Below, piece by piece: positions 5,826 through 42,570 of a DNA stretch of 43,178 nt (the stretch's first letter is position 1; each line of letters opens with the position of its first letter). Source of the stretch: a virus; the IMG/VR virus record IMGVR_UViG_3300027844_002548, positions 1 through 43,178 of that record. The stretch is one strand, 5' to 3'. The position numbers were made by a program, and so were the translations under genes. The notes beneath the pieces were generated by a model that saw only the letters and a program-made list of their open reading frames with translations, searched no databases and was not told the DNA's origin.

Positions 5826-5855
5826 GCTTATCCCCTGTTTATTACTGGATAAACA

Positions 5856-5863
5856 TATTTATG
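5856..5863 (-). promoter_or_regulatory. T4-type late promoter before the 242-residue structural gene
   Basis: CATAAATA on the minus strand, 30 bases before the ATG at 5825, overlapping the end of the upstream gene. Confidence 0.65.
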
Positions 5864-6329: not shown

Positions 6330-6364
6330 AACTAACACCTCGTCATAGTTTATATTACTTATTA

Positions 6365-8163: not shown

Positions 8164-8172
8164 AATATTATC

Positions 8173-9438: not shown

Positions 9439-10307
9439 TTCTGTATCCCTGAAAGTTTTTTAAGATATTGAATGTCTTCGCCAACTGGATTTGTGTTTGC
9501 TTGCACTGTCCGGCCGGCCCATATTTTGCTTTTAATATAAGATAACATAGTTATAAATGCGGCATGAACTTCTTTAATTACACTGATCGCAGTAAAAAAT
9601 GCGCCTATTGAGGTACTGGCTGCGGTCTGCATAACCTTATCCATATTATCTTTAAGCATATCAAACGTTCCAATAAAAAAATCTTTAATACTATCAATTG
9701 CTGTGTCGACTGCTAGTCCAACAAGTCCTTGAACTTTTACTTTAATAAATGATATAAAACCATATATGCCTATAATAGTCATAAATCCAGTCCAACCTGT
9801 TATAGCCAACAACGATTGCACCTTGGCCACAAGGAAGTCTTTAACCCATATTACTTTATCAATCAACTCTTGTGGAATTGACCCACCTGATATTTGTTCA
9901 ATAAATTTATTAAAAAGGTTAATTAACGGTTTCCAAACCGTGTTTGTAAAATATTTTTTAATTTGTTGGAGTATTTGTGGCAGGCCATCTGGGTTTGTTA
10001 TAGTATCTTTTATTAGTATAGCGGCATCTTTAAAATCTTTAATACCACCGTTAATGTCATTAACGGTGGTAGTATATTTGTTACCAAGGTAAGTTTTAAC
10101 TGAATCTAACATTCCTTCATAGAGTTCTTGTTCATATAGAATTTGTTCTCTATATTTAAATGAATATACCGATTCAGTTAAAGGTATTTCAACACCTAAA
10201 ACATTTCGAATATGTGATTCTGATAACTCGGCTACCTTATTATATCTAGTAAGACCAAAAGGTGATATAATTGTTGTCTCTTTCAATATAATATCATTTA
10301 TTATCAT
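9435..10307 (-). CDS. Hydrophobic internal-type protein with capsid-targeting-like leader
   Basis: A 290-residue protein beginning MIINDIILKET. Residues about 165-200 form a hydrophobic segment with TGWTGFMTIIGIYGFISF, and further amphipathic helices follow (SIGAFFTAISVI), so membrane insertion is possible. It ends YLKKLSGIQK. The codons for LKKLSGI are shared almost base for base with the end of the gene upstream (22-base repeat) and contain the ribosome-binding site for the next gene. I infer a virion-internal protein that could act on the membrane during DNA entry; no named family is recognised. Confidence 0.55.
   Translation of the reverse strand: MIINDIILKETTIISPFGLTRYNKVAELSESHIRNVLGVEIPLTESVYSFKYREQILYEQELYEGMLDSVKTYLGNKYTTTVNDINGGIKDFKDAAILIKDTITNPDGLPQILQQIKKYFTNTVWKPLINLFNKFIEQISGGSIPQELIDKVIWVKDFLVAKVQSLLAITGWTGFMTIIGIYGFISFIKVKVQGLVGLAVDTAIDSIKDFFIGTFDMLKDNMDKVMQTAASTSIGAFFTAISVIKEVHAAFITMLSYIKSKIWAGRTVQANTNPVGEDIQYLKKLSGIQK
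9445..9466. repeat. 22-base direct repeat, copy 1
   Basis: Identical to 10314-10335. It encodes the C-terminal LKKLSG of the gene ending at 9435 and supplies the CAGGGAT ribosome-binding site for the gene starting at 9438. Confidence 0.8.
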
Positions 10308-10309
10308 TT

Positions 10310-10738
10310 CTAAATCCCTGAAAGTTTTTTAAGATCCGTAATTTGTTCATCAATAAAAAATTCTTGCGGAACCATAAATGTCTTTCCGTCAGCACTTTTA
10401 AATTCTATTTCAGATTCACCTGGTGTTACTGTTGCTTTAAAATCTTTAAGAGCAGTTTGTCCTGCATTTTGTCCAGACTTAACATTAACAACCGCTTCTG
10501 GTTGTTCCATATCAGTTGGTGCTACTGTTCCTTGTGAACCTTGTGCTGTTGGTGAATTACTTTGTGCTGGAACAACGTTAGTTACTCCTTGTAAATTGGA
10601 ACTTGGCTTTGTTTGAGCACCAGAAGTTGCGCCTCCTGTGTTTGCTACATTAGTTTTATTAGATGCCGCTTGTGTTCCTGCTGGGGCACCGGGTGGTTTT
10701 GCATTAATTTCTTCTAAATATTCTCTAAACGTTTTCAT
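10310..10738 (-). CDS. Low-complexity internal-type protein with T4-like capsid targeting leader
   Basis: A 142-residue protein. The leader MKTFREYLEEINAK is the closest match in this window to the T4 internal-protein targeting sequence (MKTYQEFIAE). Residues about 15-90 are low complexity (Ala, Gln, Ser, Thr, Pro, Asn), then a short beta-rich part precedes a C-terminal DLKKLSGI. This build (leader, disordered linker, small domain) is what one expects of an internal head protein. Its ATG overlaps the stop of the basic protein gene, and its own stop lies 3 bases from the next start. Confidence 0.55.
   Translation of the reverse strand: MKTFREYLEEINAKPPGAPAGTQAASNKTNVANTGGATSGAQTKPSSNLQGVTNVVPAQSNSPTAQGSQGTVAPTDMEQPEAVVNVKSGQNAGQTALKDFKATVTPGESEIEFKSADGKTFMVPQEFFIDEQITDLKKLSGI
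10314..10335. repeat. 22-base direct repeat, copy 2
   Basis: Identical to 9445-9466. Here it encodes the C-terminal LKKLSG of the gene ending at 10310 and provides CAGGGAT ahead of the ATG at 10307. Confidence 0.8.
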
Positions 10739-11076
10739 GTTCTATGCCACCATTTTACGCCGCCTTTTGATCGTCCTGGCGTCTTAGGACGAGTACTTTT
10801 ATTCAATTGCGTAATCCTCTTCGTAATTGGATTAAATTTCTTTGACCTTGCAGTTTTTCGTGCAATTCGTTTTCCTAATCGTGCTTTAGTTTTTCTCAAC
10901 GTAAAGCGTTTCTTCATATCTATTGGTTTAGAACACGAAGCCGCTGTAGCAACTAATCTTCCTTTGCGCCAGCCACTAGTACAACGAAATTTTTGCACAA
11001 CTTTTTTACCACGGCGAGCCCAGACTCGCCGTGCTTCAACAATAGGTTCTTCACCATATAGATCTGTTAGATTCAT
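10735..11076 (-). CDS. Very basic DNA-binding-type internal protein
   Basis: A 113-residue protein, over a quarter Lys plus Arg, of a type found across marine T4-like phages (core KKVVQKFRCTSGWRKGRLVA and CSKPIDMKKRFTLRKTKARL). Two Cys (residues 32 and 48) flank the basic middle. The leader reads MNLTDLYGEEPIVEARR. The site IVE|A fits the T4 gp21 prohead protease consensus (I/L-x-E before A/G/S), so removal of the leader and packaging with the DNA are predicted. The ATG has no Shine-Dalgarno sequence and follows a late-promoter octamer by exactly 5 bases. Confidence 0.65.
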   Translation of the reverse strand: MNLTDLYGEEPIVEARRVWARRGKKVVQKFRCTSGWRKGRLVATAASCSKPIDMKKRFTLRKTKARLGKRIARKTARSKKFNPITKRITQLNKSTRPKTPGRSKGGVKWWHRT

Positions 11077-12283: not shown

Positions 12284-13081
12284 TTATGTTGAATATTCGC
12301 GTCTTTTGCTTTGTTTTCGGTTAAAACGCCTACCTAAAGCAAATCCACCAAGGGCTGTTGCAACCGGTAAACCTATACCAATAGCAATCTTAGACCGTGT
12401 ACTCATACCGCCTTTTGTTCCGGCTGGTTGTGCTAATTCCATATCACGTGGGGCAACGACTTTACCTTTCTTATTAACTGGAATAAATTTCTTCTCTTTA
12501 GATAATTTCATTAAGACTGGATATAATTCCGATCTACGGGCACGTATACGAAAGGCTTGCATACATCGCGTAATAATTAATGTTTTTTGTCCATGCTTTA
12601 AGTTAGACCAATCTGATGCTAATCTACGAATCGCTTTATATTGTGCATTATCTACACGCAATTGTTTCTCAAATCTAAATAGAAATTGACCATCAACTTG
12701 GGCATTAACTTTTCCTTTAGCAGAATATGCTAACCATTGTTTCAACTGAGGTTGGTTAACATTCAATGAATTACGAAAAATTTGGCTGGCTTCTTGGTCT
12801 GCCATTAATGTATTTGTATCATCTGTACCGACTAGACCGCATAACAAAACATACATATCTGTACCGTTGGTACGGAATACATTCCAGTTAGAATACATAC
12901 GAGTCTTATGTGCATAAGCCATACCCGTTGGAGCATATTTGAATTCATTTTTAAGAATTGTTATAGTACAGGCATAAAGGAAAACTAGATCAGCGGCATC
13001 TTTAGCAGTAAATTTCTTTATCTGCTTTTTTTGCCTTACTAATCTGCTTTCACAGAGTTCATTGATAAATTCTAATTCCAT
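12284..13081 (-). CDS. Internal-type basic protein with C-terminal hydrophobic helix
   Basis: A 265-residue protein. I chose the ATG at 13081 (MELEFINELCESR). An earlier in-frame ATG at 13141 would overlap the upstream gene, and the octamer GATAAATA ends exactly 5 bases before 13081. The leader fits the capsid-targeting pattern and is close to T4 Alt (MELITELFDE). The body is mixed alpha and basic (AFRIRARRSELYPVLMKL). A Gly-rich hydrophobic segment, IAIGIGLPVATALGGFALG, near residues 233-251 is followed by an Arg/Lys tail. Related proteins exist in marine T4-like phages without known function. Confidence 0.6.
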   Translation of the reverse strand: MELEFINELCESRLVRQKKQIKKFTAKDAADLVFLYACTITILKNEFKYAPTGMAYAHKTRMYSNWNVFRTNGTDMYVLLCGLVGTDDTNTLMADQEASQIFRNSLNVNQPQLKQWLAYSAKGKVNAQVDGQFLFRFEKQLRVDNAQYKAIRRLASDWSNLKHGQKTLIITRCMQAFRIRARRSELYPVLMKLSKEKKFIPVNKKGKVVAPRDMELAQPAGTKGGMSTRSKIAIGIGLPVATALGGFALGRRFNRKQSKRREYST

Positions 13082-13112: not shown

Positions 13113-14504
13113 CTAAAACGACTTTTGAAAATTTTCAGCACTAAAGACTAAACGATCAACAATCTTTACAGCATTACCAATATGGTCAACTGCTACAAAA
13201 CCCTCTGGGTCTCGTACTTCGATAGAGCCATCTGGCATAATTTTAAATGTATCCATTGCTTTAATTTTGCTCATTTTTTCTGCAAACATGGATTTTACAG
13301 CAAACAACGATAACCATACATGATATAATTGTGTAAAGTTTTCTTTATTTGCTTCAAAAAAGTCTAGGCCTTTTTGAAGTTCTTCTGTTTTCCTATCAAC
13401 AGTATCTTGTCTTTTTGAACCAGAAATTATTTTTTCATACTTATCTTCAAAACGAGCAACATGACTTGATGCAAATGCTAAAGGATTTTCAGGGATAGTA
13501 CCATCAGATTTAATACTAGCATTAATTGTTGACTCTAAAGATTTCTTAAAATCTTTACCCATTTCTTCGCTCTCAAGAAACTGAAAAACTTTCTGGCCGG
13601 CTCCGAGAAGACTTTTATGCGCGGTATTAATTGCTGAACTAATCTTATTAGTTTCTTCTTTTGTTAATGTTACTTGCCCACTTACGTCATGTATTTTAGC
13701 ATCTTGGAACCAAACATCTGAACTTGGTTTTAAATCATCAACGCTTGCGCCAAAACTTGCTTTCATTGTAGGAATAGTATCACCATCATACTTTGTATGA
13801 AAAACAATACCAATTGTTGCTTGCTCAATTTGGTTTGCTATATCACTGCCAACCGGAACAGCATAAGTTAAACTATTTGGAGTAAATGTAAGATATTTTT
13901 CTCCATCAATCTCTTTTACCTGTTTAATATCAGATGTAAACAATAAATCGCCTTGTAAAATACCTCGATAATCAGGCGGAAAAACTTTAGGTAGATGCTC
14001 TAATACTTCTTTTAATTTACTACGCAACCCACTTAAATCAACTGCTTCGCCTTTATTTGTTCTGTCTGCTTTGTTTTGGTCAATAGCATCTGGTGTGTCC
14101 ATTATGCGAGGAGTTTTAGCAAACAATCCTTTGTCGCCCATTACAAACTTACCAGTCTCAGGATTAATACCTGCAAATATAGCAGGTGCTCCATCCCACT
14201 TAGTTGTAATGTTTACGCTTTCGGTGGCACTACCTTCGAGCATATCTAGTAGGCCTGCGGCAATATTTAATGCATCTTCGGCACCTTTATAACCACCATG
14301 TATTAAACTATCTTCAAAATGAGTTAAATGAAGATTTTTACCTTCCGCTTCTGCTTCGGTAATGCCGGCCATTTCCATATCATCTTTAATAGCCCTGCGT
14401 ACTTTTGCAAGTTTATGGAATTCTATACCTTTTTTACGAGGGATTCGAGGTCCACGGAACTTACGTTTTTGTTTAATATTAAGTATAAGTTCATTAACCT
14501 TCAT
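13113..14504 (-). CDS. Ligase/capping-superfamily nucleotidyltransferase-like protein
   Basis: A 463-residue protein of a family conserved in marine T4-like phages (I recall it as DUF6267). It carries the motif series of covalent nucleotidyltransferases: TTKWDGAPAIF (KWDG at 102-105, K102 the candidate nucleotidyl-lysine, motif I), GILQGDLLF (181-189, motif III-like), EGFVAVD (motif IV-like) and NAVKIVDRLVFS (motif V-like) near the C-terminus. This suggests an ATP-dependent RNA or DNA ligase-type reaction. The leader MKVNELILNIK and a very basic residue 11-40 region suggest packaging with DNA. Its gene starts in an 11-base overlap with the gene before it, which carries the AAAGGA ribosome-binding site. 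Confidence 0.65.
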   Translation of the reverse strand: MKVNELILNIKQKRKFRGPRIPRKKGIEFHKLAKVRRAIKDDMEMAGITEAEAEGKNLHLTHFEDSLIHGGYKGAEDALNIAAGLLDMLEGSATESVNITTKWDGAPAIFAGINPETGKFVMGDKGLFAKTPRIMDTPDAIDQNKADRTNKGEAVDLSGLRSKLKEVLEHLPKVFPPDYRGILQGDLLFTSDIKQVKEIDGEKYLTFTPNSLTYAVPVGSDIANQIEQATIGIVFHTKYDGDTIPTMKASFGASVDDLKPSSDVWFQDAKIHDVSGQVTLTKEETNKISSAINTAHKSLLGAGQKVFQFLESEEMGKDFKKSLESTINASIKSDGTIPENPLAFASSHVARFEDKYEKIISGSKRQDTVDRKTEELQKGLDFFEANKENFTQLYHVWLSLFAVKSMFAEKMSKIKAMDTFKIMPDGSIEVRDPEGFVAVDHIGNAVKIVDRLVFSAENFQKSF

Positions 14505-18958: not shown

Positions 18959-19339
18959 ATGAATGATGACATAAAACAATTGATCGAAAAATATCCATTC
19001 TTAACTGGTATTAAATATGCCAGTAAAGAAATTATCGGCATTATACAAAATCATAATTCTCACATTACTAGTATCTATTCTTTTGATTTAATTGGAGATA
19101 GCGATCTTAAGAAAAAGTTCTTACACGTAGGTGATACTTGGTGGTGGGAAAGTAATCGTATTACGCCAATAAATTTATTCCTTCCGTACGAAATGGAACA
19201 ATTTCGTTTTTGCTTACGAAACTATATAAGTAAAGATGTTGAATTTTTGTTTGGGCCAATTACAAGTCTGCATAACATAGTTAGAAAACGTATTAAGAGA
19301 CGAACAGTACAATTAGTACGTAAGATAGATAAAACTTAA
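18959..19339 (+). CDS. Conserved marine phage protein of unknown function (plus strand)
   Basis: A 126-residue protein, one of very few plus-strand genes. FLTGIKYASKEIIGIIQNHN, DTWWWESNRITPINLFLP and the KDVEFLFGPITSL region match a family I remember from T4-like cyanophages, with no known function. The C-terminus is strongly basic (RKRIKRRTVQLVRKID). It is convergent with the Pol III alpha-like gene, and their stop codons overlap by 4 bases. No good promoter or ribosome-binding site is evident upstream, so expression timing cannot be judged. Confidence 0.65.
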   Translation: MNDDIKQLIEKYPFLTGIKYASKEIIGIIQNHNSHITSIYSFDLIGDSDLKKKFLHVGDTWWWESNRITPINLFLPYEMEQFRFCLRNYISKDVEFLFGPITSLHNIVRKRIKRRTVQLVRKIDKT

Positions 19340-24517: not shown

Positions 24518-25072
24518 TTACCCTGATATTTTTAGGGTTTCTTTCGCATCTGCAACTTGTTTCGTCGCGATTGCGTGTAAACGAGAATTGCCCTTATCTA
24601 GCACCTGCAAAAGAGCCTCTTTTTCTCTAATATAAACTTTAGCAAAATTTGGATCGTGTTTTACGATGCTTTTGCTGTTGCTGATCAAATCAGCCAATTT
24701 TACCGTTTGTGCATCAGCACTAGCACTAGCAGAATGCTCTCTGTCCATTTCTTTCCTAAGGGCTCGATTTCCATCTTCGAGTTTACTTATATCAGTTAGT
24801 TCATTTACTAGTTTAGCGATCGCAGGACCGAAATGCTCAACAATTTCCGCATTCGTGACATTTGTGTCTTCAACGGTATCGTGCAAAAGGGCGGCCGCTT
24901 GCATTACTTCGGATCCGCCAACCGATTTAACAATCTGTGAAACTTCTATTGGATGGACAATGTAATCCTCGCCAGTGTACTTTCGTTTCTGGCCGATGGA
25001 TTCGTGGGCATCTTTAGCAAACGCCAAAGCCTTATTAACCACGTTCTCTTGATCTACCTCTATAATTCGCAT
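24518..25072 (-). CDS. SpoT-like HD-domain hydrolase (putative (p)ppGpp hydrolase)
   Basis: A 184-residue single-domain protein of the RelA/SpoT hydrolase (MESH1-like) type. Key residues are present: DYIVHP (H40), ALLHDTVED (H64, D65, E68, D69), a MDREHS segment and VKLADLISN (D128). No synthetase, TGS or ACT domain follows, so it should only hydrolyse the alarmone (p)ppGpp or a related nucleotide. The ATG at 25072 is preceded by GGAAGG; an in-frame ATG at 25090 lies upstream of that site. It is the last gene of the early operon from 25971. Removing host (p)ppGpp could restore stable RNA and nucleotide synthesis during infection (inference). Confidence 0.82.
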   Translation of the reverse strand: MRIIEVDQENVVNKALAFAKDAHESIGQKRKYTGEDYIVHPIEVSQIVKSVGGSEVMQAAALLHDTVEDTNVTNAEIVEHFGPAIAKLVNELTDISKLEDGNRALRKEMDREHSASASADAQTVKLADLISNSKSIVKHDPNFAKVYIREKEALLQVLDKGNSRLHAIATKQVADAKETLKISG

Positions 25073-25073
25073 A

Positions 25074-25331
25074 CTATCCTTCCAACTCATTTAGTATACT
25101 TATCAACTTTCTCATCTTGCCAACTTTTTTCTGCCAGAAGCCTTTTGGTATAGGCGTGTTCCAACCATTTTTGCGAGCATTGCTTATACTAGTAAATAGG
25201 CCTGCCTCAACCATAATATGGGCCATGATCCAATGCTCCTGAATCGGAACATTTTCAATATCATCAAAACCAAACAGTTCTATATCTTTATCAGAAATGC
25301 TCGGATGGACAAAATTAATTTCGTTAGTCAC
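25074..25331 (-). CDS. Small phage protein of unknown function
   Basis: An 85-residue protein with a GTG start at 25331 that overlaps the preceding gene by 8 bases. The segment EHWIMAHIMVEAGLFTSISN followed by ARKNGWNTPIPKGF looks like a small alpha/beta domain and ends in a basic helix (KKVGKMRKLISIL). GxWNxPIPKG-type segments recur in short phage proteins I cannot name. It is translationally coupled to the HD hydrolase, whose start lies 1 base after its stop codon. No function is assigned. Confidence 0.5.
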   Translation of the reverse strand: MTNEINFVHPSISDKDIELFGFDDIENVPIQEHWIMAHIMVEAGLFTSISNARKNGWNTPIPKGFWQKKVGKMRKLISILNELEG

Positions 25332-26395: not shown

Positions 26396-26403
26396 GGTAA
26401 ATA
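26396..26403 (+). promoter_or_regulatory. Late-promoter-like octamer before the CCA-adding-type gene
   Basis: GGTAAATA on the plus strand, one mismatch from NATAAATA, then exactly 5 bases and the ATG at 26409. The spacing equals that of the minus-strand leaderless late promoters. Confidence 0.4.
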
Positions 26404-26408
26404 TATGT

Positions 26409-27605
26409 ATGAGAGCATTAGAATTTTTAGTTGAGGCACAAGAAAAACTAGATAGTGACGAATTTAAACAAATTCTTACTGCTGGTGTAGTTTCACTCGG
26501 TAACCTTTTTCATAAAAACGGATTTGAACTACGTATTGTTGGTGGTGCAGTTCGAGACCTAATGCTTGGCAAATTGCCCAAAGATACAGACTTAGCATCA
26601 GATGCTACACCAGACGAAATGGTTGAAATGTTTGAAAAGGGCAATATTAAGTATATTCCAACAGGATTACAGCACGGAACAATTACCGCTGTAATTAATA
26701 AAGAACAATTAGAAATTACAACGTTACGTGCAGACGCAGAACATACTGGTAGACACGCTACTGTTGAATTTATACGTAGTTGGGAAGAAGATGCTAAACG
26801 CAGAGATTTAACATACAATGCTATGTCATTAGATTTAGACGGTACAGTATATGATTATTTTAATGGAGCAAATGACTTACAAGATAAAGTAAGTAAATTT
26901 GTAGGTGAACCGGAACAACGTATACAAGAAGATTATTTAAGAATTTTGCGCTACTTTAGATTCCAAGGACGCATTAATAATCCTACTTGGGAGAAAGATA
27001 CATTAGATGCTATAAAAAGCAATGTTAAAGGTTTAACACAAATTTCTGGTGAACGTATATGGATGGAAATGCAAAAGATACTGTTAGGTAACAATGTAAA
27101 AGACATATTAGTACATTTAGAAAAAACAGGCGTTACAAAAAATATTAATCTACCATTAGATGATATTGCACTAGCAGAAAAAGTTAGTACAATGCAAAGT
27201 CCTATTGTTCCTTTAGCAAGTCTTATGCGTAATATAAAAGATGTAGACGCGATAGGTAATGCATGGAAACTATCAAATGCAGAAATGCAACTTTTATCTT
27301 TTTTAACTGAATTTAAAAATACACCTCTAACACAGCAAAGTGCAGAAGAATTTTTAGTTGATGAAACTCATCAATATTTTGTTTATGCTCTTGCTAAAAT
27401 ACAAGACAAAGATGCTATTGCAAATCATATTAGAAGTTGGCAAGTACCAGAATTTCCTGTAACAGGAAAAGACTTAATTAGTGCAGATGTAAAACCTGGT
27501 CCTAACATGGGTGCTTTACTAACAAAGTTACGAGACGAATGGAAGTCTAAAAACTACAAACCTAGCAAAGAAGAATTATTATCAACAGTGATCGATGAAC
27601 GGTAA
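26409..27605 (+). CDS. CCA-adding enzyme / poly(A) polymerase family protein with capsid-targeting-like leader
   Basis: A 398-residue class II nucleotidyltransferase. RIVGGAVRDLMLG (GG at 45-46, RD at 49-50), DTD (D59, D61), TTLRADAE, RRDLTYNAM (131-139), EDYLRILRYFRF and SGERIWMEM are the ordered motifs of bacterial tRNA nucleotidyltransferases and poly(A) polymerases. It would add CCA (or A) to RNA 3' ends. The ATG at 26409 is used; an in-frame TTG at 26394 is less likely. The leader MRALEFLVEAQEK fits the capsid-targeting pattern, and LVE|A fits the prohead protease site. It is on the plus strand, convergent with the tRNA and synthetase genes. Confidence 0.85.
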   Translation: MRALEFLVEAQEKLDSDEFKQILTAGVVSLGNLFHKNGFELRIVGGAVRDLMLGKLPKDTDLASDATPDEMVEMFEKGNIKYIPTGLQHGTITAVINKEQLEITTLRADAEHTGRHATVEFIRSWEEDAKRRDLTYNAMSLDLDGTVYDYFNGANDLQDKVSKFVGEPEQRIQEDYLRILRYFRFQGRINNPTWEKDTLDAIKSNVKGLTQISGERIWMEMQKILLGNNVKDILVHLEKTGVTKNINLPLDDIALAEKVSTMQSPIVPLASLMRNIKDVDAIGNAWKLSNAEMQLLSFLTEFKNTPLTQQSAEEFLVDETHQYFVYALAKIQDKDAIANHIRSWQVPEFPVTGKDLISADVKPGPNMGALLTKLRDEWKSKNYKPSKEELLSTVIDER

Positions 27606-27876
27606 AGATCCATACGATTATAGTAGGCAAATACAAACTGGTAAAAGTATGGGCGAGTTCGGAGATGTAGATACAACACGAACCATAGGAAAACAAGGAT
27701 GGAAAGTAAAAATAGAGACAAACCCAAGAAAGAAAAAAAGAAGCCGAAGAAGCCTAAGTCTTAAAATTAAAAACTGGCTCCGGAGGAAGGATTCGAACCT
27801 TCACGCCCTGCCAAGGACACTGAGTAAACCGCCCAGCATGTCTACCAATTCCATCACTCCGGAACAAATTCTTTAG
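27595..27876 (+). CDS. Possible small basic protein, antisense to a tRNA in its second half
   Basis: An open frame of 93 codons whose ATG overlaps the end of the CCA-adding gene by 11 bases. Residues 1-50 look protein-like (DPYDYSRQIQTGKSMGEFGD, then GWKVKIETNPRKKK). From about residue 62 the frame runs antisense through the tRNA gene, and that part is probably not under protein selection. A second frame offers a 21-codon Lys/Pro-rich peptide ending at 27762, so a -1 shift near 27700 could end the real protein there. Treat it as a doubtful gene. Confidence 0.35.
   Translation: MNGKDPYDYSRQIQTGKSMGEFGDVDTTRTIGKQGWKVKIETNPRKKKRSRRSLSLKIKNWLRRKDSNLHALPRTLSKPPSMSTNSITPEQIL
27775..27863 (-). tRNA. 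Class II tRNA with anomalous anticodon loop (GUU at the anticodon position)
   Basis: An 89-base tRNA with encoded CCA. Acceptor stem UCCGGAG/CUCCGGA pairs fully, discriminator G73. The D arm contains GAAUUGGUAGA. The anticodon stem is CUGGG/CUCAG and the T arm GAAGG-UUCGAAU-CCUUC. The long variable arm (UGUCC-UUGGCA-GGGCG) and D loop are of the tRNA-Leu kind. The anticodon loop is CGGUUUA (27825-27831). Positions 34-36 read GUU (Asn), but position 33 is G rather than the near-universal U, and position 37 is U rather than a purine. G73, U1-A72 and GUU agree with bacterial tRNA-Asn. All stems are intact, so decay is unlikely. It starts 9 bases after the synthetase-like stop codon. Confidence 0.85.
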
Positions 27877-28703
27877 AACAAGTTACACATTTCCATTGCA
27901 CGAATAAATCTAGTCATTCCAATGCCGCCGCCTACACGTGGTATAAAATCATGACTTAAAAATTCGTCCAATTCTTTGTTAACTCTGTCCTTGCCAAACG
28001 TTCCATGCAACAAACTAGCATATTGCCCATCACTAATTGTGTGAAACATATCATGCATTTCTGTTGTATCTGCTGACCGTTCTGCAGAACCAATTGTTTC
28101 TTGTCCACAAATAATTACATCAATTTTTGCGGCTGTTCCATCACCATTTTGTTTCATGTTCCAAAATGGACTTGTGTAATTTGGAAAGTTTCGAATCATT
28201 TGTACATTACCGTACTTTTCATACATTGCAGTTTCTTCTGCATGTGTTAATTCTTCAACGCCAAATTCCGCTGACCAATCAGTGTAATCTTTTGATGTAA
28301 TTGCATCAATTGATGAAAAGCCTACTGCTTCGCATAAATCCAATTCCATTCGATATAAGTCATTAATATCCCCTGGCATTTCGAATTCAAACATAGGAAA
28401 TATAAGATCATGCCTACCAGGTATAGCATTAGGCTCTTGCCTATATGATGTTGAGACACAAAAAAAGCCCGGAACCTCAGGCTTAGTAAGTAACTCGTAT
28501 TCTAACCACATCTGTCCTGTTTGCGGTAACGGCCAAACTTGGCCGGCGTAATTATATGTTGAGACAGTTGTTGGATCTTCGCATGCCGCTAATATACTTA
28601 AACGATTTTGCGTATGTACTTCTTGAAATCCTTTGTTCAAAAAAAAGGACCGTAAACGGCCCACGCTATCCGTGAATTTCTCCGGATTAATAAGTTGTGT
28701 CAT
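27873..28703 (-). CDS. Truncated class II AsnRS/AsnA-like synthetase
   Basis: A 276-residue catalytic core of the Asp/Asn class II synthetase family. Visible are FFLNKGFQEV (motif 1 region, 20-29), SYRQEP with RHDLIFPMFEFE (motif 2, R88, E90, R97), KIDVIICGQETIGSAERS (193-210, the AsnRS-like GEIIGGSQR region) and VGGGIGMTRFIRAME (motif 3, R265). The GGGIG form also resembles asparagine synthetase A. The N-terminal OB-fold anticodon-binding domain of AsnRS is absent. It should activate an amino acid with ATP; transfer to tRNA or ammonia cannot be decided. A late promoter (28761-28768) precedes it, and the tRNA follows in the same transcript direction. Confidence 0.8.
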   Translation of the reverse strand: MTQLINPEKFTDSVGRLRSFFLNKGFQEVHTQNRLSILAACEDPTTVSTYNYAGQVWPLPQTGQMWLEYELLTKPEVPGFFCVSTSYRQEPNAIPGRHDLIFPMFEFEMPGDINDLYRMELDLCEAVGFSSIDAITSKDYTDWSAEFGVEELTHAEETAMYEKYGNVQMIRNFPNYTSPFWNMKQNGDGTAAKIDVIICGQETIGSAERSADTTEMHDMFHTISDGQYASLLHGTFGKDRVNKELDEFLSHDFIPRVGGGIGMTRFIRAMEMCNLF

Positions 28704-28775: not shown

Positions 28776-29738
28776 TCAATAACCGTAAGGTATAATTACA
28801 TAATGTATTGCCAATACTATTCCAACTGAAACTATTAATCCTAACATCATTTTAAGAAAGTCTCTTCCTACAATTGGAAATACGTGCTTGAATTTATAAT
28901 TTTCCATAACAGTTGATATAGCAAGTTCTCGTCCACATAGCAATCCAACAAACACCCAAGTTGTACTCATAGGAATGTCATTTAATTCTTTAAAGAATAA
29001 CAATATGAATGCATAAACTAAATTAATTATTGTTGCTGATCGAACATACCTAGTGCCTGTTTTTTCTAAAACAATTTCTTGAATTTTGCCGCCATGTTCT
29101 CGAAATGTATATCCTAAGAACACTACAAATACAACAGATATAAAAAGCATCCATTCTATAGACAATGCTCGTGGGAGGAATACAGCAATATTTGCCATAT
29201 CGTGTGATAACCAAGTATACCATAAAAACCCAGTTGTGCCCCATTGAGCAACACGCCAATATCTTTTATGGTGTTCTTTTACTTTATCATGTTTTTCATC
29301 AATTAATCGTTCTAAAACAATCCATAAACAATACGCAACAACTGCGGCCAATGCATAACCCATAACAGATTTTACAAGCATTTTTTCCAATACAAATGTA
29401 CTAGCAAATGCCGATAACACTAGGAATGAGGTTGAAACTGGAACGCCTATTCGCGTTAACAATAAAAGTATGGCTGGTGCTGTAGCATGATACCATTGCA
29501 CTTCTTGAAATGGTATTTTATTTAATCTACCAAATGATATATCACCTGCATTAATATACCACCCATACCACATAGTTATTAATAGACCAATCGAAGCGGC
29601 GGCCCATAAAGTATACCATTTAAATTTTTCTGAATTTGATGCTAGCCATGGACCTAAGGTTTGTACACTATCATTAGCAACAACAGAATATGCGGCTAAC
29701 ATAAAACCTAGGATCATCCATAACAAAGTTATATCCAT
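28776..29738 (-). CDS. PiT-family phosphate permease
   Basis: A 320-residue integral membrane protein with about nine hydrophobic segments. Family signatures are AYSVVANDSVQTLGPWLAS near the N-terminus (the GANDxxN-type repeat), VSTSFLVLSAFAS, LSHDMANIAVFLP and IPMSTTWVFVGLLCGRELA, which are the two inverted PiT repeats. It would import inorganic phosphate (ion-coupled) into the host during infection, meeting the phosphate demand of DNA replication. Phage- and virus-borne phosphate transporters are known from marine systems. A weak GGAG precedes the ATG, and the terminator at 29755-29789 separates it from upstream transcription. No clear promoter of its own is visible. Confidence 0.82.
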   Translation of the reverse strand: MDITLLWMILGFMLAAYSVVANDSVQTLGPWLASNSEKFKWYTLWAAASIGLLITMWYGWYINAGDISFGRLNKIPFQEVQWYHATAPAILLLLTRIGVPVSTSFLVLSAFASTFVLEKMLVKSVMGYALAAVVAYCLWIVLERLIDEKHDKVKEHHKRYWRVAQWGTTGFLWYTWLSHDMANIAVFLPRALSIEWMLFISVVFVVFLGYTFREHGGKIQEIVLEKTGTRYVRSATIINLVYAFILLFFKELNDIPMSTTWVFVGLLCGRELAISTVMENYKFKHVFPIVGRDFLKMMLGLIVSVGIVLAIHYVIIPYGY

Positions 29739-33429: not shown

Positions 33430-33783
33430 TCAAATCTCATCAGAATCAACTATTTCCATATCTGCTTTAACTTTTGGAAATGCTGAATGATCTGGTAGAT
33501 CATCCTTAACTGTAAACATTAATTCTTTTACTCTTTCTAGTGATTTATCTTTTGGTGTAATAGTACCGGAGTAAATTGTATCATGATGATAATCAGCAAT
33601 AATTTCATTGTCGTCGGCTTCAAGTACTTGCCATTGCTTAATAGCATTAGTTAAAATTGCATCAACAACATCTTTTTTACTATCTGCAACCCAAGAACGA
33701 CCAGGACGGGCAACGTCTAATACAATGTATTGCGTTTCCTCTTCCTCTTGTATAGTCTCGTTTAATAAATCATTGAGTTTCAT
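33430..33783 (-). CDS. Small protein with capsid-targeting-like leader
   Basis: A 117-residue acidic protein. The leader MKLNDLLNETIQEEEE is the cleanest example of the shared leader in this region. The body (TQYIVLDVARPGRSWVADSK, then VDAILTNAIKQWQVLEADDN) reads as a small alpha/beta domain that I cannot name. The late-promoter octamer TATAAATA (33789-33796) lies exactly 5 bases before the ATG, and no good Shine-Dalgarno sequence is at normal spacing, so a leaderless late mRNA is predicted. An internal head location is inferred from the leader. Confidence 0.55.
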   Translation of the reverse strand: MKLNDLLNETIQEEEETQYIVLDVARPGRSWVADSKKDVVDAILTNAIKQWQVLEADDNEIIADYHHDTIYSGTITPKDKSLERVKELMFTVKDDLPDHSAFPKVKADMEIVDSDEI

Positions 33784-33935: not shown

Positions 33936-36323
33936 TTAAACGCCTGCTAAATGCTTAACACGATCTAATGTTTCTGAGACTTCGTCGTCTTCGTCGTCAT
34001 TATCGTCGTCATTATCATCGTCAGTTTCTTCCTTCTTGCCATTTTTAGCATCAAGCATTTTCTGGAAAGCGGCTTTTTGTGCTTCGCTTTGTGCTTCGTC
34101 TATTTGTTCTTCGTCATCATCAGTTTCGGCGTCTTCAATAACTGGATCTATACCTGCTAAATGTCTAACACGGTTTCGCGTTTCAAGGGCTGGGTCTGCA
34201 TCATATTCAAGATTTTGGCCTAAATCATCTAGCTCTTCTTCTTGCCCTGTGTTGTCAAGATAACCTTCTAGATGTGCAAGTTCGTCTTCCTGCATACCTT
34301 GCTCACTAAAGCCAAGATCATATCCAGTAATGTCACTAATTGCTTTTTCAAAACCCGAATCAGTATAAATTTGATATGGACCATCATGGTCAACATAAAC
34401 ACTTATGGTATTATCATCCTCGTCGTCTTCATCGCCAGTTCTAACACTAATAGTCGAAACATGAACCGAATCAACTGGTTCATCAATACCATGTTCAGAA
34501 TTCATCCAAATACTATCACCTGCTAATGGAATATCTTTATTAACAGTAATTTCTGTTTCTGAAAACTTATCTTCACGAATTACTGATTCTGCTAATTCCC
34601 AACCGTCAACTAATGCACTGTCTAATTCTTCGGCGTCAATCACTTTTACTTCGCCGTCCTTAACTACCATTGCATCAGTGCCGTCGCCTTTATATTGGCG
34701 TGGCTCGCCTTCGTTAATAACTTCCTCACCACTTAATGCAGAATAAACATCTTCTGTTTTAAGATCATATTCCTTTGCAACTTCTTCACACATACCTTTA
34801 ATCTTACGGATTAATGGTGAACCGTCACTCATACGTGGCAAGTTTGCCATACGTTGTTTTGCATCAGCAACTGCGCGACTAAAGTCTACAAACTCATCTT
34901 CTGAAATTTTAACTGTTTCAAACAATGCTTTATCACTAGCAACATCTTCTAACCAACTTTCAAATTGCTTACCTTCTGGTGCATACATATCATCCGGCAT
35001 TTCTTCGGGATTCTCATCATCGATACTTGGGCCTGCGTCAGCATCAGCAGAGGCTTTTTTAGCAAACAACCCTTTATCTCCGGCTCGTTGCATAACAGTT
35101 TTAACTATATCAACTTCTTCACTCGAAATGCTTGCTCCCTCGTCTTGCATTTTCTCACCTGTACGTGCCAAAAATGCTGATAACAAGTCATCCTTAATAA
35201 TTGCTGATAACTCTCTAACTTTGTAAGAGATCTCATCTCTTACACTTGCAAACTTCATAATATTCGCACTCGAATATTCATCTTGGCCTGCTGATGGTGT
35301 ATGAAACTCTGCTTCTTCGGCTTTGCTCTTAAGTAAATCAATGTCCTTTAACTGATCGCCAACTGATGGCTGTGGTTTAACACGATATTCTATAATTTTG
35401 GAAATTAGCGGTAGTGACTCTTCAAGAGACTCAGGGAATTCTCTTGTAGTAAACATATCTTTAAGTTCTGTAACTTTCTCATCAGTAGTTTCTCGTACTG
35501 TATTATCAATTGATTCTACTGCTTGACCATAATTCTTAACACTAGTGAGTGCAACTAATTGTTCTTTAATATTTGCATAACGTTCTTTGACTGCTTCAAC
35601 AGCATCACCTGTTTCCTCACTAACAAACTTAGGTGATCGTGCATAACGCAAAAACTTTTGTACTTGAGCATATTCCTCTGACAATCCTGTAATGTGGCTT
35701 CCTACATCATCATGTGTAATGCCTCCCATACTTACATGTCTTGCCATTGCTCTCGCACCTGCTAAATGTATATGCGGATATTGAAATCTTTCTCCGGCGC
35801 CATTTTCGATAAACAGTGCCTTAATGTGACGGCTTCGTGAACCGCGTACTTCTTCGTCAATTGATTTTGTATGTCTCACGATTAATTTTACTTTGTTATC
35901 ATGTAACTGATAACTAGATTTACTACTTCCTGACATCGGAGACATTCCCTCTGCCATATTTTTCATTGCTAATTCCTCATCATTCATTGATTTAACTGCT
36001 TGATGCACATAATCCTTTGGTTTTAAGGTATGTCCAAACGTTCGTAGATCAAAATTCCATCTGTTTTTAGTTGCAATACTTTGCAACGTTTTACGTAAAT
36101 TCTCAATTTCATCTAATTCTACCGAATCTGGTTTGTGCAATTTTATAGTTTTTAAAGTTTCGTCAAGTGTAATCATAACATTAGAAGGCTTTAAAAAGAA
36201 CCTTCTGGCTTCACGATCGTCAAGAGTTTTATCTCCGTTTTCAGAAAACATTTCTAAACGAAAGCCTGTACCTTTGATCACCTTGCGAACTTCGGTGGCT
36301 ATATTTTCTATACTCGAACTCAT
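33936..36323 (-). CDS. Large conserved phage protein, probably virion-associated
   Basis: A 795-residue protein. The N-terminal 250 residues contain a conserved block (SSYQLHDNKVKLIVRHTKSI, then RGSRSRHIKALFIENGAGER and YPHIHLAGARAMARHVSMGG) that I remember from large unknown proteins of T4-like cyanophages. The middle is helical; the last 300 residues are strongly acidic and partly disordered. It holds two LAG motifs, NRVRHLAGID and the C-terminal DRVKHLAGV. The ATG follows AATAAATA by exactly 5 bases. It lies directly after the terminase gene, so a head or packaging-related role is possible. Confidence 0.6.
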   Translation of the reverse strand: MSSSIENIATEVRKVIKGTGFRLEMFSENGDKTLDDREARRFFLKPSNVMITLDETLKTIKLHKPDSVELDEIENLRKTLQSIATKNRWNFDLRTFGHTLKPKDYVHQAVKSMNDEELAMKNMAEGMSPMSGSSKSSYQLHDNKVKLIVRHTKSIDEEVRGSRSRHIKALFIENGAGERFQYPHIHLAGARAMARHVSMGGITHDDVGSHITGLSEEYAQVQKFLRYARSPKFVSEETGDAVEAVKERYANIKEQLVALTSVKNYGQAVESIDNTVRETTDEKVTELKDMFTTREFPESLEESLPLISKIIEYRVKPQPSVGDQLKDIDLLKSKAEEAEFHTPSAGQDEYSSANIMKFASVRDEISYKVRELSAIIKDDLLSAFLARTGEKMQDEGASISSEEVDIVKTVMQRAGDKGLFAKKASADADAGPSIDDENPEEMPDDMYAPEGKQFESWLEDVASDKALFETVKISEDEFVDFSRAVADAKQRMANLPRMSDGSPLIRKIKGMCEEVAKEYDLKTEDVYSALSGEEVINEGEPRQYKGDGTDAMVVKDGEVKVIDAEELDSALVDGWELAESVIREDKFSETEITVNKDIPLAGDSIWMNSEHGIDEPVDSVHVSTISVRTGDEDDEDDNTISVYVDHDGPYQIYTDSGFEKAISDITGYDLGFSEQGMQEDELAHLEGYLDNTGQEEELDDLGQNLEYDADPALETRNRVRHLAGIDPVIEDAETDDDEEQIDEAQSEAQKAAFQKMLDAKNGKKEETDDDNDDDNDDEDDEVSETLDRVKHLAGV

Positions 36324-38250: not shown

Positions 38251-39738
38251 TTAAGGTTTAGTTGGGTTTATTTGAGTGATGGGATCGTCCCGCTCAATCT
38301 TATATTTAACATCCGCAATATGTTTTAATAGATCGCCCATTTCGATGGTATTTCTTAAATAACTTTCTGAAGGTTTAAGATTCGATCTAATTTGAACCAA
38401 CATTTCTTTGCCTGCGAATACTTCTTTTGCATCCGATCCTACCGGAACGCCAAAGATTTTAATTACTGGAGGGGTTGCTTGATAATCTATCTTTAAATCA
38501 AACTGTTTCATTGCTTCATGTAACTCTGGACCAAAGAATAATTCTTTATATCCGGGTGCGTTTGGTGTAGTTTTTAAAATAACCATGCTAACGTTTGGGT
38601 CGTTGTTTGTGGCGAAATGCTTAATACCTGAATAAAGTCTGTCTAAAAATGTAACTTCTTTCTTTGTATTACCTGCAAGTTCGGCTTTTAACTCAGTAAA
38701 TACTTTTTCATATATTTTCTGTAAAATCTCGAAACTCTCTTTTCGGCCGACTCCCTCTAACTGGTCAATCCAAGTATCGGGTATATCTACTCCAAGAATC
38801 TTGTTAAAATATTCTTGAAAAACCTCAAATGTATCTCCACTAACTTGGCCAAACTGTTTTACATCACCTGTTTTAGCACTTAATAAACTAATTGTTATAT
38901 CATCAACAGTTAAAAATAAATCTGCTTTAGTGCCTTTTTGATCCATTGTACCATCTGATGTAACTTTTACCATATTTTTTTTGCCATTTTCAATTATTGT
39001 TTTAACTGCGTTTGTAACAGTTTGATTAGTATTTGCCCACATGACTGCTGATCTATTCAATCCAGCCATTTTAGGATGCCAGGTGCCTGATTTGATTGCT
39101 TTTTGAATTGCTGTAAAACCCGATCTATTCAAAACTAATTTAAAGTATAACTCATCGGCGTCAGAATTCGGAATGTTATTAGGGCCGAGATTAACCTCGG
39201 TCCAAACTTCGCCCTGTAAAGTTTTTGCGGCTTCGGTAATCGTCATCGATTTAAGAACGTTTATAATATCCTCTTCGGTAATATCAACATTAGGTGATCT
39301 AAATTTAGCAGTTGCCGCGGCACCTAAAAATGCTTCGCCGACATCACCTGCATTAAATCCTTTACCGGATTTAAATTTATCCGATTTATGTACATGACCC
39401 ACCGGCACTGTATCTTTAGTACCTTGAATGGTTAATCTTAAAGTTTTATAGTTGCCGACAGGAACAATTCGATCAGGTCCTGCATCGGTCACTTCCACGT
39501 TGGTTTTGTCCGTTGGTATCTCATCTTGGCCATAATATACTTGAGCAAGTTTTTTTGCGTCTTCTTTCTCAAATGTTACAAAATTACCATATTTCTTCCA
39601 TGAGGCGCCTTCTAATTCAACTTCCTCGCCGTTATTAATAAACGTAATTAATTGATCAAGATACTCTCCATATCTTTTAGCAAGATCACCATGTGATAAG
39701 CCTTTTTCAATTAAAAATATAAACTCACTCGCTTTCAT
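38251..39738 (-). CDS. Nuclease-like internal protein with capsid-targeting-like leader
   Basis: A 495-residue protein. The ATG at 39738 is chosen because it starts the leader MKASEFIFLIEKG; an in-frame ATG at 39780 lies deep in the neighbour. Two blocks suggest a PD-(D/E)XK or restriction-endonuclease-like core: GDVGEAFLGAAATAKF (131-146, helix with Glu) and GTKADLFLTVDDITISLL followed by SAKTGDVKQFGQVSG (D273, K289, then Gln). I recall a like block in cyanophage proteins of unknown function. Packaging in the head and injection would make it an entry-stage nuclease. Fold assignment is tentative. Confidence 0.55.
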   Translation of the reverse strand: MKASEFIFLIEKGLSHGDLAKRYGEYLDQLITFINNGEEVELEGASWKKYGNFVTFEKEDAKKLAQVYYGQDEIPTDKTNVEVTDAGPDRIVPVGNYKTLRLTIQGTKDTVPVGHVHKSDKFKSGKGFNAGDVGEAFLGAAATAKFRSPNVDITEEDIINVLKSMTITEAAKTLQGEVWTEVNLGPNNIPNSDADELYFKLVLNRSGFTAIQKAIKSGTWHPKMAGLNRSAVMWANTNQTVTNAVKTIIENGKKNMVKVTSDGTMDQKGTKADLFLTVDDITISLLSAKTGDVKQFGQVSGDTFEVFQEYFNKILGVDIPDTWIDQLEGVGRKESFEILQKIYEKVFTELKAELAGNTKKEVTFLDRLYSGIKHFATNNDPNVSMVILKTTPNAPGYKELFFGPELHEAMKQFDLKIDYQATPPVIKIFGVPVGSDAKEVFAGKEMLVQIRSNLKPSESYLRNTIEMGDLLKHIADVKYKIERDDPITQINPTKP

Positions 39739-40062: not shown

Positions 40063-42570
40063 TTACTCGCTTTTATAGTCTGTGTATGCTTTTGAGAATT
40101 TTTCCTCTAACGATTCTGCATTAAGATAAGGATTGTCGCCTTGTCTTGCACTTACTGTGCGTTGCTTTGGTTGCTTTTTCTCGCCTGCGCCATGTATCGG
40201 TAAATCAGATCTGGACCAATATTTTGGCTTACTACGTGGGTCTTGTTCAACACTTTCATACTCTTCGCCATCATCATCATGGTCGTGCTCGCCATCATTT
40301 GGATGTGAATGTGTCATACCGTCGTGGTCATGTTCATCGCTATTGCTTCCAATGTTGTTTAACTTCTGTACTAAGTCGCCCATACTTTGTGGGCCTGCTG
40401 GCTCATCGCCATCAAGGTCAACGCCAACAATTTCATCACCATCTGGTTCTGAATGGCCGGTTGAAACGCCCGCCAAACTTAATACTTTCATTAATTCATC
40501 AGGAGCATCACTAGTAACATTCATAGTTTTATGAGTATTACCATCATCTTGGGTGATGTTTAGATTGTAATTTGTTTTAGGTTCTGGCATTACCTCAGGA
40601 CCTGTTGGATCACAAACACCACACATTTCATCGATTTTCATTATTCTCTCCATTAAATCATTTAACTCTTCATTACTAACTGATTCACCAATTAGGGCCA
40701 TAAGGCCTGCATGGGTTACATTGCCTTGTGGTACTTGTACCATACCATTATCAATAATCATTTGTGCTAAATCTTGCAATACTTGATCGTCTGCTGGGCC
40801 TGCTGGTTCTTCAGCGCCTGCTTCGGCGCCGGCTTCGGCATCGGCATCTGCGCCTGCTTCGGCATCGGCATCTGCGCCTGCTTCGGCATCCGCGCCTGCT
40901 TCTGCACCTGCTTCTGCACCTGCTTCTGCTTCGGCATCCGCGCCTGCTTCTGCACCTGCTTCTGCACCTGCTTCTGCTTCGGCATCTGCACCTGCTTCTG
41001 GTTCTGCACTTACGTCAATTCCTGCTGATGAAAATGCATTATCAACTGTATCAGCGCCAATTCCAGCATCAACTACTATATTTCTAATACTTGCTGAATC
41101 TTCTGGTGAACCTGCTTTTTTCCATGCGTTTACTAAACCATCTACTGATATTGCGCCAACATCGGCTACGGCAGCGGCGGCCTTGGCCAGCACACCACCC
41201 ATTGCTGTTTTTATTCCAGCAAAATTAAGTTCATATAAATGATCGTCATTTTCTTCAAAACTTTCTTTAGCAGTTTCTTCTCCAGCACCTGCTGGAATCA
41301 TTTCGGCTGGAACTGGTTTTTCAGGTTCTTCTGGTTCGCCTGCTTTTGTTGCGGCTGCCTTTAATTGATCTGCTTGTTGAACCGCCGCTTGTGCCGCGGC
41401 CGCAACAGGGCCTTGTGCCGCTTCTAAATTAGTTAATAAACCGTCGAGATTATCATATTGACCTATAACTTGTTCTAATTGATCAATTGACATTCCTGTT
41501 TCTTGTGCCGATTTAATTGCATCTACTGCCGCTCGCATTGTTCCTTGGATAGGGTCGTTTTGCAAACCTGCCATCATTTCATGATATTTTGCTACTTCTG
41601 TATACCATTCTGGCGACCAATTACCGCCGGTGGCCGAGACTGCCGCTTTTGCGGCTTCAAATTGTTCATATACATCAGGTGGCATAATAATATCATAACT
41701 ATAATGGAAAGCATTAATACTACCCGTCGATTGAATTGACATAGCACCATCTAATTCAGCAACAAGATCACCATATTGATCAGTTACTCCGGCCATTGCA
41801 TCCTCAACATTGATCGCTTTCATGGCCGCTTCCATTCCTTCAATGTCTTCGATACCTGCCATTTCAATATTAGAAATAACACCGTCGCCAAGCCAATTGG
41901 CCGCAAAACCAACAAGAGCACCAATTGCCGCTGTTTTTCCTGCTCTACCAACTGCTGTACTTAACTTTTCGCCTGCAATCAAATCGTTACCTGCTCTCAT
42001 TACAAAACCAGCAATAGCGCCGCCGGCTGGGCCAGCGATCATGCCGCCTGCTAATGTAATTACAGCAACAATAATTGCTTGTTTACCTGGGTTCTCTTTA
42101 CCCCACTTACCATATGCTTGTACTTGTTTAACTAGAGCCGCCCCCATTGGACTGTCTTCTAGTTTAACTTTCATTTCTCCAATCTTTTTAGCAACTAAAG
42201 CATCAAAATTTTGTACTGGTTCAGTATCTTGAATCTTTTTACCTAAGTCGTTAAGTGCCTTATTGGCCGCTTTTACCGCTTTAACTGGTAAACTTTTACC
42301 AATTGCTTGTGTACTTTTCTTTAATAAACCTGGATTACCGGTTGCTTCTATATGGCCATCAACTGCTTGTTGAAAAATAGCATTTACTTGGTCTGGTGTA
42401 ACTGCCGCTTCTGATAAAATTAACCGTTTATACTCATTAATATAAGGCATCAATGTTTCTTCAACTTGACGCATTACTTCTTTTTGTTCAGATGTAAAAT
42501 TATCTAAATCAGATCCAAGTTCGCTCTCATATAGATACATTTTTTTATTTTTTAATTCTGTTAGTTTCAT
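40063..42570 (-). CDS. Large internal-type protein with membrane segments, Ala/Glu repeats and His-rich region
   Basis: An 835-residue protein. Leader MKLTELKNKKMYLYESE, where LYE|S fits the prohead protease site. Residues 165-192 are a glycine-zipper membrane segment (AGGMIAGPAGGAIAGFVMRA) and 213-228 another hydrophobic stretch. About residues 520-595 are repeats of Ala-Glu-Ala-Gly-Ala-Asp type. Near residues 755-790 there is a His/Asp-rich stretch (DEHDHDGMTHSHPNDGEHDH) that may bind metal. The glycine zipper plus leader suggests an ejected protein that enters the membrane during DNA delivery. No named family is recognised. Confidence 0.6.
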   Translation of the reverse strand: MKLTELKNKKMYLYESELGSDLDNFTSEQKEVMRQVEETLMPYINEYKRLILSEAAVTPDQVNAIFQQAVDGHIEATGNPGLLKKSTQAIGKSLPVKAVKAANKALNDLGKKIQDTEPVQNFDALVAKKIGEMKVKLEDSPMGAALVKQVQAYGKWGKENPGKQAIIVAVITLAGGMIAGPAGGAIAGFVMRAGNDLIAGEKLSTAVGRAGKTAAIGALVGFAANWLGDGVISNIEMAGIEDIEGMEAAMKAINVEDAMAGVTDQYGDLVAELDGAMSIQSTGSINAFHYSYDIIMPPDVYEQFEAAKAAVSATGGNWSPEWYTEVAKYHEMMAGLQNDPIQGTMRAAVDAIKSAQETGMSIDQLEQVIGQYDNLDGLLTNLEAAQGPVAAAAQAAVQQADQLKAAATKAGEPEEPEKPVPAEMIPAGAGEETAKESFEENDDHLYELNFAGIKTAMGGVLAKAAAAVADVGAISVDGLVNAWKKAGSPEDSASIRNIVVDAGIGADTVDNAFSSAGIDVSAEPEAGADAEAEAGAEAGAEAGADAEAEAGAEAGAEAGADAEAGADADAEAGADADAEAGAEAGAEEPAGPADDQVLQDLAQMIIDNGMVQVPQGNVTHAGLMALIGESVSNEELNDLMERIMKIDEMCGVCDPTGPEVMPEPKTNYNLNITQDDGNTHKTMNVTSDAPDELMKVLSLAGVSTGHSEPDGDEIVGVDLDGDEPAGPQSMGDLVQKLNNIGSNSDEHDHDGMTHSHPNDGEHDHDDDGEEYESVEQDPRSKPKYWSRSDLPIHGAGEKKQPKQRTVSARQGDNPYLNAESLEEKFSKAYTDYKSE
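40806..41010. repeat. Coding tandem repeats (Ala/Glu/Gly/Asp) in the 835-residue gene
   Basis: Degenerate 6-, 12- and 18-base units on the minus strand, made of GCC, GAA, GCA, GGC and GAT codons encoding (Glu/Asp)-Ala-Gly-Ala-type repeats. The units GCTTCTGCACCT and GCTTCGGCATC (plus strand) recur many times. Likely to vary in copy number by slippage. Confidence 0.85.

Follow-up and report, generated by a model that had tools for sequence, protein, structure and literature searches.

A TRNT1-type CCA-adding enzyme with a predicted capsid-targeting leader, a candidate for injected cargo in a T4-like marine phage

Introduction

The prohead protease gp21 of phage T4 cuts after the motif L/I-X-E, and ten residues of the T4 internal protein IPIII suffice to package foreign proteins and enzymes, which are then delivered into the cell (PMC9026906, PMC5694885). 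The word CCA is absent from the survey of polyvalent proteins (Iyer 2017, PMC5512222), and the CCA-adding enzymes of jumbo phages have been treated as part of RNA repair rather than as cargo of the virion (Iyer 2021, PMC7824862). Our literature searches, with most subscription journals outside their coverage, returned no report of virion CCA enzymes or of CTS-like leaders in marine phages. T4-type capsid-targeted cargo is already known; a CCA enzyme as such cargo is, as far as we found, unreported.

Here we analyse a linear IMG/VR virus fragment of 43,178 bases, hereafter the window, whose large terminase shares 54% identity with its counterpart in Pseudomonas phage PA5oct and 45-49% with those of other large T4-like phages. 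The contigs L002-L004 are near-identical to the window, and L003 is part of a 72.8-kb record that we refer to as the sibling contig G001. We propose, at a probability of about 0.62 for the reading as a whole, that the window encodes a late-made, leader-targeted TRNT1-type CCA enzyme that would be cleaved, injected and active at entry.

Overall structure of the CCA-adding enzyme

Plus-strand genes are scarce in the window; as the earlier note had counted, there are two or three of them, at 26409-27605, 18959-19339 and possibly 27595-27876. The first is the gene of interest.

26409-27605, plus strand: TRNT1-type CCA-adding enzyme (tRNA nucleotidyltransferase), 398 aa, assigned by Pfam/PHROG/NCBIfam, PDB, Foldseek and AF2

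The 398-residue translation opens MRALEFLVEAQEKLDSDEFK and matches PF01743 at residues 41-161 (E 6e-35), PF12627 at residues 195-246 and phrog_2244 (E 1e-60). The presence of both a PolyA_pol head and an RNA-binding domain, together with a full-length Foldseek match, places it among the class II tRNA nucleotidyltransferases. The catalytic motifs DxD, RRD and EDxxR are all intact, and the motif residues GG45-46, R49, D59/D61, R131-R132-D133, E174-D175 and R178 are invariant across the phage homologues. The AlphaFold2 model has a mean pLDDT of 90, and structural similarity search with it using Foldseek returned TRNT1 first (E 2e-32, 41% identity); all top matches are TRNT1, followed by bacterial CCA enzymes. 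The top PDB sequence match is also human TRNT1 (311 bits), the alignment starting at residue 12 with EKLDSDEFKQILTAGVVSL against MKLQSPEFQSLFTEGLKSL. As judged from its sequence, the window protein is a complete CCA-adding enzyme, with CCA addition itself a predicted activity, which bears out the earlier assignment of this gene to the CCA-adding type.

No CCA enzyme of >60% identity was found among the isolates of a 50,697-record phage collection, in which the best isolate match is Atu_ph07 (38.6%, the alignment beginning at residue 22). A profile search of IMG/VR yielded 80 loci, including a marine phage clade 50-65% identical to the window enzyme, most members of which have a leader of this type. 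A quick tree was made from 128 sequences, with cellular enzymes sparsely sampled; in it, human TRNT1 grouped inside the phage enzymes (98% SH-aLRT for the human sequence with 45 phage rows) and away from the alphaproteobacterial enzymes included. Eukaryotic mitochondrial and phage CCA enzymes might share a common ancestry, a lead only at this limited sampling.

The N-terminal leader and its predicted cleavage site

26409-26435, plus strand: nine-codon leader MRALEFLVE, a predicted capsid-targeting sequence with a predicted prohead-protease cut after Glu9 (between 26435 and 26436), based on pLDDT, TRNT1 alignment, relatives and the L/I-X-E motif (PMC9026906)

The leader MRALEFLVE and the protease-type site LVE/A are present exactly as first described. 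Residues 1-10 (MRALEFLVEA) are disordered in the AlphaFold model, with a pLDDT of 35 against mostly >90 for the remainder, and lie ahead of the start of the TRNT1 mature chain. In the model, the first ten residues are an appendage, separable from the folded enzyme. None of 71 cellular homologues has a comparable leader; we dropped the idea that it is a family-wide trait of CCA enzymes, as it is absent from cells and from most other phage homologues.

The segment FLVE-9/A matches the T4 prohead-protease motif L/I-X-E. Taken alone, an L-x-E within ten residues is weak evidence; the leader stands beyond chance because it recurs in relatives and a promoter box is present. The sibling contig encodes a gp21-type prohead protease (PF03420, 64 bits, above cut-off), whose gene is truncated where the contig stops. 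Next come the gene of a probable core protein (phrog_10922) and that of the major head protein (phrog_138), which has HLTE/AA about 43 residues from its N-terminus.

Further genes of the window open with leaders of the same kind:

4765-11076, minus strand: leader-gene-rich region (MKLAEI, MFLNDL, MKYTEI, MNLTEL, MKIDEI, MIINDI, MKTFREYLEE, MNLTDL), from the leader-pattern scan
10735-11076, minus strand: leader gene MNLTDLYGEEPIVEA with a TAAATA-N5-ATG box, from gene-start and box scans
12284-13081, minus strand: leader-like gene MELEFINELCES with a TAAATA-N5-ATG box, from gene-start and box scans
13113-14504, minus strand: DUF6267 gene with leader MKVNELILNIK (PF19782, E 9e-89)
33430-33783, minus strand: leader gene MKLNDLLNET with a TAAATA-N5-ATG box, from gene-start and box scans
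38251-39738, minus strand: leader gene MKASEFIFLIEKG, from the leader-pattern scan
40063-42570, minus strand: leader gene MKLTELKNKKMYLYES, from the leader-pattern scan

Within the leader-gene-rich region, 5097-5825 matches a virion structural family (phrog_14154, E 7e-20). The DUF6267 protein is widespread in cyanophages and pelagiphages, and its TKWDGAPA motif recalls, by eye, a nucleotidyl-ligase motif. The CCA gene itself is solitary, lying beyond the leader-gene region and on the opposite strand from the genes around it.

The leader pattern occurs at 15/76 gene starts of the sibling contig against 7/424 internal Met, and at 14/56 starts of the window, an enrichment that is partly circular because the pattern was defined after viewing the window; the neighbourhood test described below is less so. 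In the sibling contig, a hydrophobic-x-E lies within residues 7-20 in 11/16 leader genes against 18/60 others (p 0.008). Whole-genome enrichment of the pattern was not clear in the relatives G004 or G008, and for this reason we relied on the neighbourhood and promoter tests instead.

Leaders and mosaic proteins in relatives

CCA homologues of >50% identity bear leaders such as MRINEVILHEE, MRLNEVILHEE, MLINEVLIYEE, MRAFEFLIED and MKIFEVTEVKD. Other >50% homologues have upstream domains and a linker (e.g. ESLNEEALNV, ALREEALNV) where the leader would stand, and the long CCA-containing mosaics open with leaders themselves (MRLHEFKIE, MKFKDIKVKE, MKISDLTED). A hydrophobic-x-E was found in the leader or linker zone of 29 of the 32 distinct rows of the clade against 16 in letter shuffles, compared to 4/12 against 3.2 expected in other phage homologues; the excess is supportive yet modest, because the rows are related and not independent. 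The leaders are short and variable, and a clean L/I-X-E is absent from the G005 CCA leader MKIFEVTEVKD.

The window copy is a single-domain protein by Pfam, not a multi-effector polypeptide of the polyvalent kind. Such polypeptides were found in seven relatives (G004, G005, G006, G007, G008, G011 and G035). The 1,216-aa protein of G008, which starts MRLHEFKIEKP, combines a SpoT-type HD, the CCA enzyme (~455-840) and an NT5C HAD phosphatase. That of G011 (1,184 aa) has NT5C, a ParB-like stretch recognized by eye, and CCA; that of G007 (1,020 aa) has CCA, NT5C and GNAT; that of G035 (1,270 aa) has HD_4 and CCA; and in G004, G005 and G006, CCA is followed by NT5C in one protein. Moreover, separate NT5C-type genes adjoin the CCA gene with leaders of their own, namely MIINEIVSTHP (G010), MLIREIISEKP (G020) and MLIEEIISEEE (G022), the last of which matches the PHROG deoxyribonucleotidase family.

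As a side observation, the loci L299, L300, L312, L314 and L270 (G007, G009, G031, G035 and G011) encode leader-tagged mosaics of 1,000-1,270 aa built from shuffled modules: HD_4, CCA, NT5C, GNAT, ParB-like and a basic C-terminal kind. By eye, a zinc-peptidase-like motif, HELIH, is also present in the G011 mosaic.

The window has a hydrolase gene related to one of these modules:

24518-25090, minus strand: SpoT-type HD hydrolase with a possible start at 25072 (MRIIEVDQEN); HD_4 E 6e-21, TIGR00691 spoT_relA E 2e-25

It lies 1.3 kb from the CCA gene and shares 57% identity, across 166 aa, with the HD domain that G008 carries in its CCA polyprotein. The enzymes are fused in one lineage and are separate leader-tagged genes in another, and would therefore act in the same place.

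Gene neighbourhoods and a probable role as virion cargo

In G004, the CCA gene has the tail sheath gene (phrog_10581, E 1e-232) on one side and the tail tube gene (phrog_4542, E 2e-57) on the other. Matching gene order gives the same sheath-CCA-tube position in G019-G022, G024, G025 and G027, the families having been confirmed in G004 and the G019 contig stopping within its CCA gene. In seven others (G003, G005, G006, G008, G011, G031 and G035), the CCA gene lies among leader genes. In G014, the CCA gene, with leader MRAFEFLIED, stands beside an unrelated DUF6267 gene with the near-identical leader MRAFEFLTEA. Overall, same-strand neighbours of CCA genes show the leader pattern in 30/115 cases across 16 marine regions, against 6/126 for the neighbours of 18 other CCA genes from phages (p 3e-6 by Fisher's test). 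We regard these relatives as the decisive sequence-level evidence for a probable cargo role. The packaging first proposed from the window alone has thus gained a separable leader, leaders in relatives, a protease in the sibling contig, the -5 box described below, and positions in tail operons and leader runs; packaging itself is what we infer from them.

Alternatively, the enzyme could be made late and stay unpackaged, maintaining host and phage tRNA ends in the infected cell, its leader a tolerated tail or a by-product of leaderless mRNAs. This would accord with CCA enzymes being common in jumbo phages and explained there as RNA repair (PMC7824862), with the many phage homologues that have no leader, and with the tRNA gene adjoining the window gene. 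We nevertheless think it unlikely, as the leader recurs clade-wide with varied letters and one pattern, also on long fusions and on unrelated neighbours; one would not expect such recurrence, or a place in sheath/tube operons, of a tail that is simply tolerated.

The same operons (G004, G019-G022, G024, G025 and G027) would suit an enzyme that is virion-associated without being head cargo, docked by its leader in the tail or neck. However, the gene orders differ in the window and in other relatives, and a leader combined with L/I-X-E and a gp21-type protease fits the T4 head route, so that we judge docking improbable and retain the reading as injected head cargo.

A late-promoter-like box at a fixed distance from the start codon

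T4-like late promoters have TATAAATA as their -10 element. A similar box precedes the CCA gene.

26396-26408, plus strand: late-promoter-like box GGTAAATA at 26396-26403, with exactly 5 nt between its end and the ATG, supported by spacing statistics
33936-36323, minus strand: virion structural protein family gene with the box and without a leader (phrog_13484, E 1e-28; the PA5oct homologue is annotated as structural)

TAAATA occupies 26398-26403 and is followed by 5 nt and the ATG of the CCA gene. The window has six TAAATA-N5-ATG occurrences, where shuffles give an expectation of 1.8 and not one in 100 reached six, and all six stand at listed ORF starts (297, 11076, 13081, 26409, 33783 and 36323). 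The 5-base late-like spacing claimed at the outset therefore holds beyond this one gene: in the sibling contig, the box lies at exactly -5 in 6/75 gene starts, against 0.053 expected (p 2e-11). These six are the CCA gene, the leader or leader-like genes MKLNDLLNET, MELEFINEL and MNLTDLYGEE, a gene for a virion-structural-family protein, and a gene directly after a tail-tube-like gene; the last shares the 12-mer CTTGGTAAATAT with the CCA gene. The box is tied to structural genes because 33936-36323 carries TAAATA-N5-ATG. It also stands at -5 ahead of the CCA genes of L005, L268, L304, L305, L306 and L308; in G004, the CCA gene is the only gene with a -5 box, and TAAATA-N5-ATG exceeds chance in G008 and G011 too.

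Late expression of the CCA gene is predicted from the late-type box at fixed spacing. With the box so near the ATG, the transcript would start at or next to it, which suggests leaderless late mRNAs in these phages. An ordinary early or middle tRNA-repair gene, with leader and promoter likeness arising by chance, would be in keeping with a single gene opposite in strand to its neighbours and with the RNA-repair theme. It is made improbable by the strength of the -5 box and its recurrence at CCA genes of separate G004-type lineages, as well as by the recurrence of the leader in relatives. Late-made cargo thus remains our preferred reading.

Substrate of the enzyme and the adjacent synthetase-core/tRNA pair

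The earlier note had left the substrate between CCA addition and polyadenylation, and of these CCA addition is favoured: a poly(A) polymerase or RNA-tagging enzyme, conceivable from the class II family shared with PcnB, is very improbable and was dropped, as family and structure scores favour CCA enzymes far above PcnB, with 224 bits for the NCBIfam CCA model NF009814 against 127 for pcnB (both under the curated cut-offs), 311 bits for human TRNT1 against 83 for bacterial poly(A) polymerase in PDB, and Foldseek matches to TRNT1 ahead of bacterial CCA enzymes. Action of the enzyme against tRNA-cutting defence is possible.

Downstream, the CCA gene converges on a tRNA gene with a partner.

27775-27863, minus strand: tRNA gene (anticodon GUU, long variable arm, encoded CCA), convergent to the CCA gene
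27873-28703, minus strand: AsxRS-like class II synthetase catalytic core (phrog_29758), the partner of the tRNA, from Pfam/PHROG and structure search

A PDB sequence search with the synthetase core gave no match, whereas the structure search by Foldseek matched the AsnRS core (TM 0.75, ~18% identity); the protein lacks the anticodon-binding domain. It is encoded in >590 viral loci, and the pair recurs in many marine viral contigs. Among the viral loci L009-L088, the tRNA lies 4-11 nt downstream of the synthetase core in most, and in two they overlap. ARAGORN found a tRNA in 48/78 viral loci, amounting to 41 distinct sequences, and in most of the others one is visible by eye. The anticodon is GUU, rarely GUC, and position 33 is often not U. 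The two look like an enzyme and a tRNA dedicated to each other, perhaps for something other than ordinary decoding.

We considered and rejected a functional tie between the CCA gene and the pair. As had been pointed out, the tRNA encodes its own CCA and needs no such enzyme, and the genes mostly occur apart: the CCA gene is present in 1/12 pair-bearing contigs, and the synthetase in 2/12 CCA contigs, one of which is the window's sibling.

Several observations concern the surroundings of the pair. In L005:4047-5500, from a 92% relative, other sequence stands in place of the 3' half of the tRNA, and the frame of the CCA gene extends to 467 aa into the tRNA remnant; the tRNA there looks broken and the synthetase core is retained. 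In the window, the plus-strand ORF at 27595-27876 (93 aa, with a basic middle) overlaps the CCA stop by 11 nt and runs antisense through the tRNA gene; it may be a small gene or chance. A membrane protein gene with a weak PHO4 phosphate-transporter match (28776-29738, minus strand) adjoins the synthetase core, with the same adjacency in L005.

Discussion

We propose that a T4-like marine phage would transcribe its CCA gene late, from the TAAATA box 5 nt before the ATG, and that MRALEFLVE, like a T4 capsid-targeting sequence, would draw the enzyme into the prohead core. There, the gp21-type prohead protease would remove the leader after Glu9, leaving a mature enzyme that starts AQEKLDSDEF and that would be ejected along with the DNA. 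Once in the new cell, it would restore or maintain the 3'-CCA ends of tRNAs ahead of phage gene expression. In related phages, the CCA domain would be delivered as one module of a mosaic cargo protein whose other modules include a SpoT-type hydrolase and HAD phosphatase.

Given these fusion partners, the role may be a broader one: translation would be restarted at entry, with the companion hydrolase and phosphatase perhaps reversing the shutdown of translation in a cell that is starved or mounting a defence. An extended version, which we hold tentatively and at less than even odds, is that marine T4-like phages inject a translation-restart kit of CCA enzyme, SpoT-type alarmone hydrolase and HAD phosphatase, as separate leader-tagged proteins or as a protease-cut polyprotein, which would repair tRNA ends and clear (p)ppGpp at entry.

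If the cargo reading is true, the virion carries an enzyme central to tRNA maturation, and the phage would therefore set the translation state of the host before its first transcript. RNA repair would then join nuclease inhibitors and ADP-ribosyltransferases among the known cargo of T4-type heads, and the entry of the phage would be linked to tRNA damage and to the stringent response. The rule of a leader, an L/I-X-E and a box 5 nt before the ATG would, moreover, predict injected proteins in many uncultured marine phages.

Among known systems, the closest relative with a solved structure is human TRNT1, a mitochondrial enzyme (1ou5, 4x4w, 8cbm) that resembles the window enzyme over its full length, with 41-43% identity and the same domain layout and motifs; where TRNT1 has a mitochondrial transit peptide, the window enzyme has a short leader with a protease-type site. 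Jumbo-phage CCA enzymes (Atu_ph07, CcrPW and others; PMC7824862) belong to the same family and are 35-39% identical to the window enzyme, but they have no leader and, unlike the marine clade, their neighbours rarely bear one. The polyvalent proteins (Iyer 2017, PMC5512222) are likewise mosaics of effector domains, as are relatives of the window gene, and may enter with the DNA; the window copy differs in having a single domain, and here the phages are T4-like and their proteins bear leaders. Among T4 proteins, the internal proteins and Alt, whose capsid-targeting sequences are cleaved by gp21 (PMC9026906, PMC5694885), are alike in the short N-terminal leader, the L/I-X-E, the gp21-type protease and the late-type box, whereas the putative cargo of the window is a tRNA nucleotidyltransferase and the letters of its leader differ.
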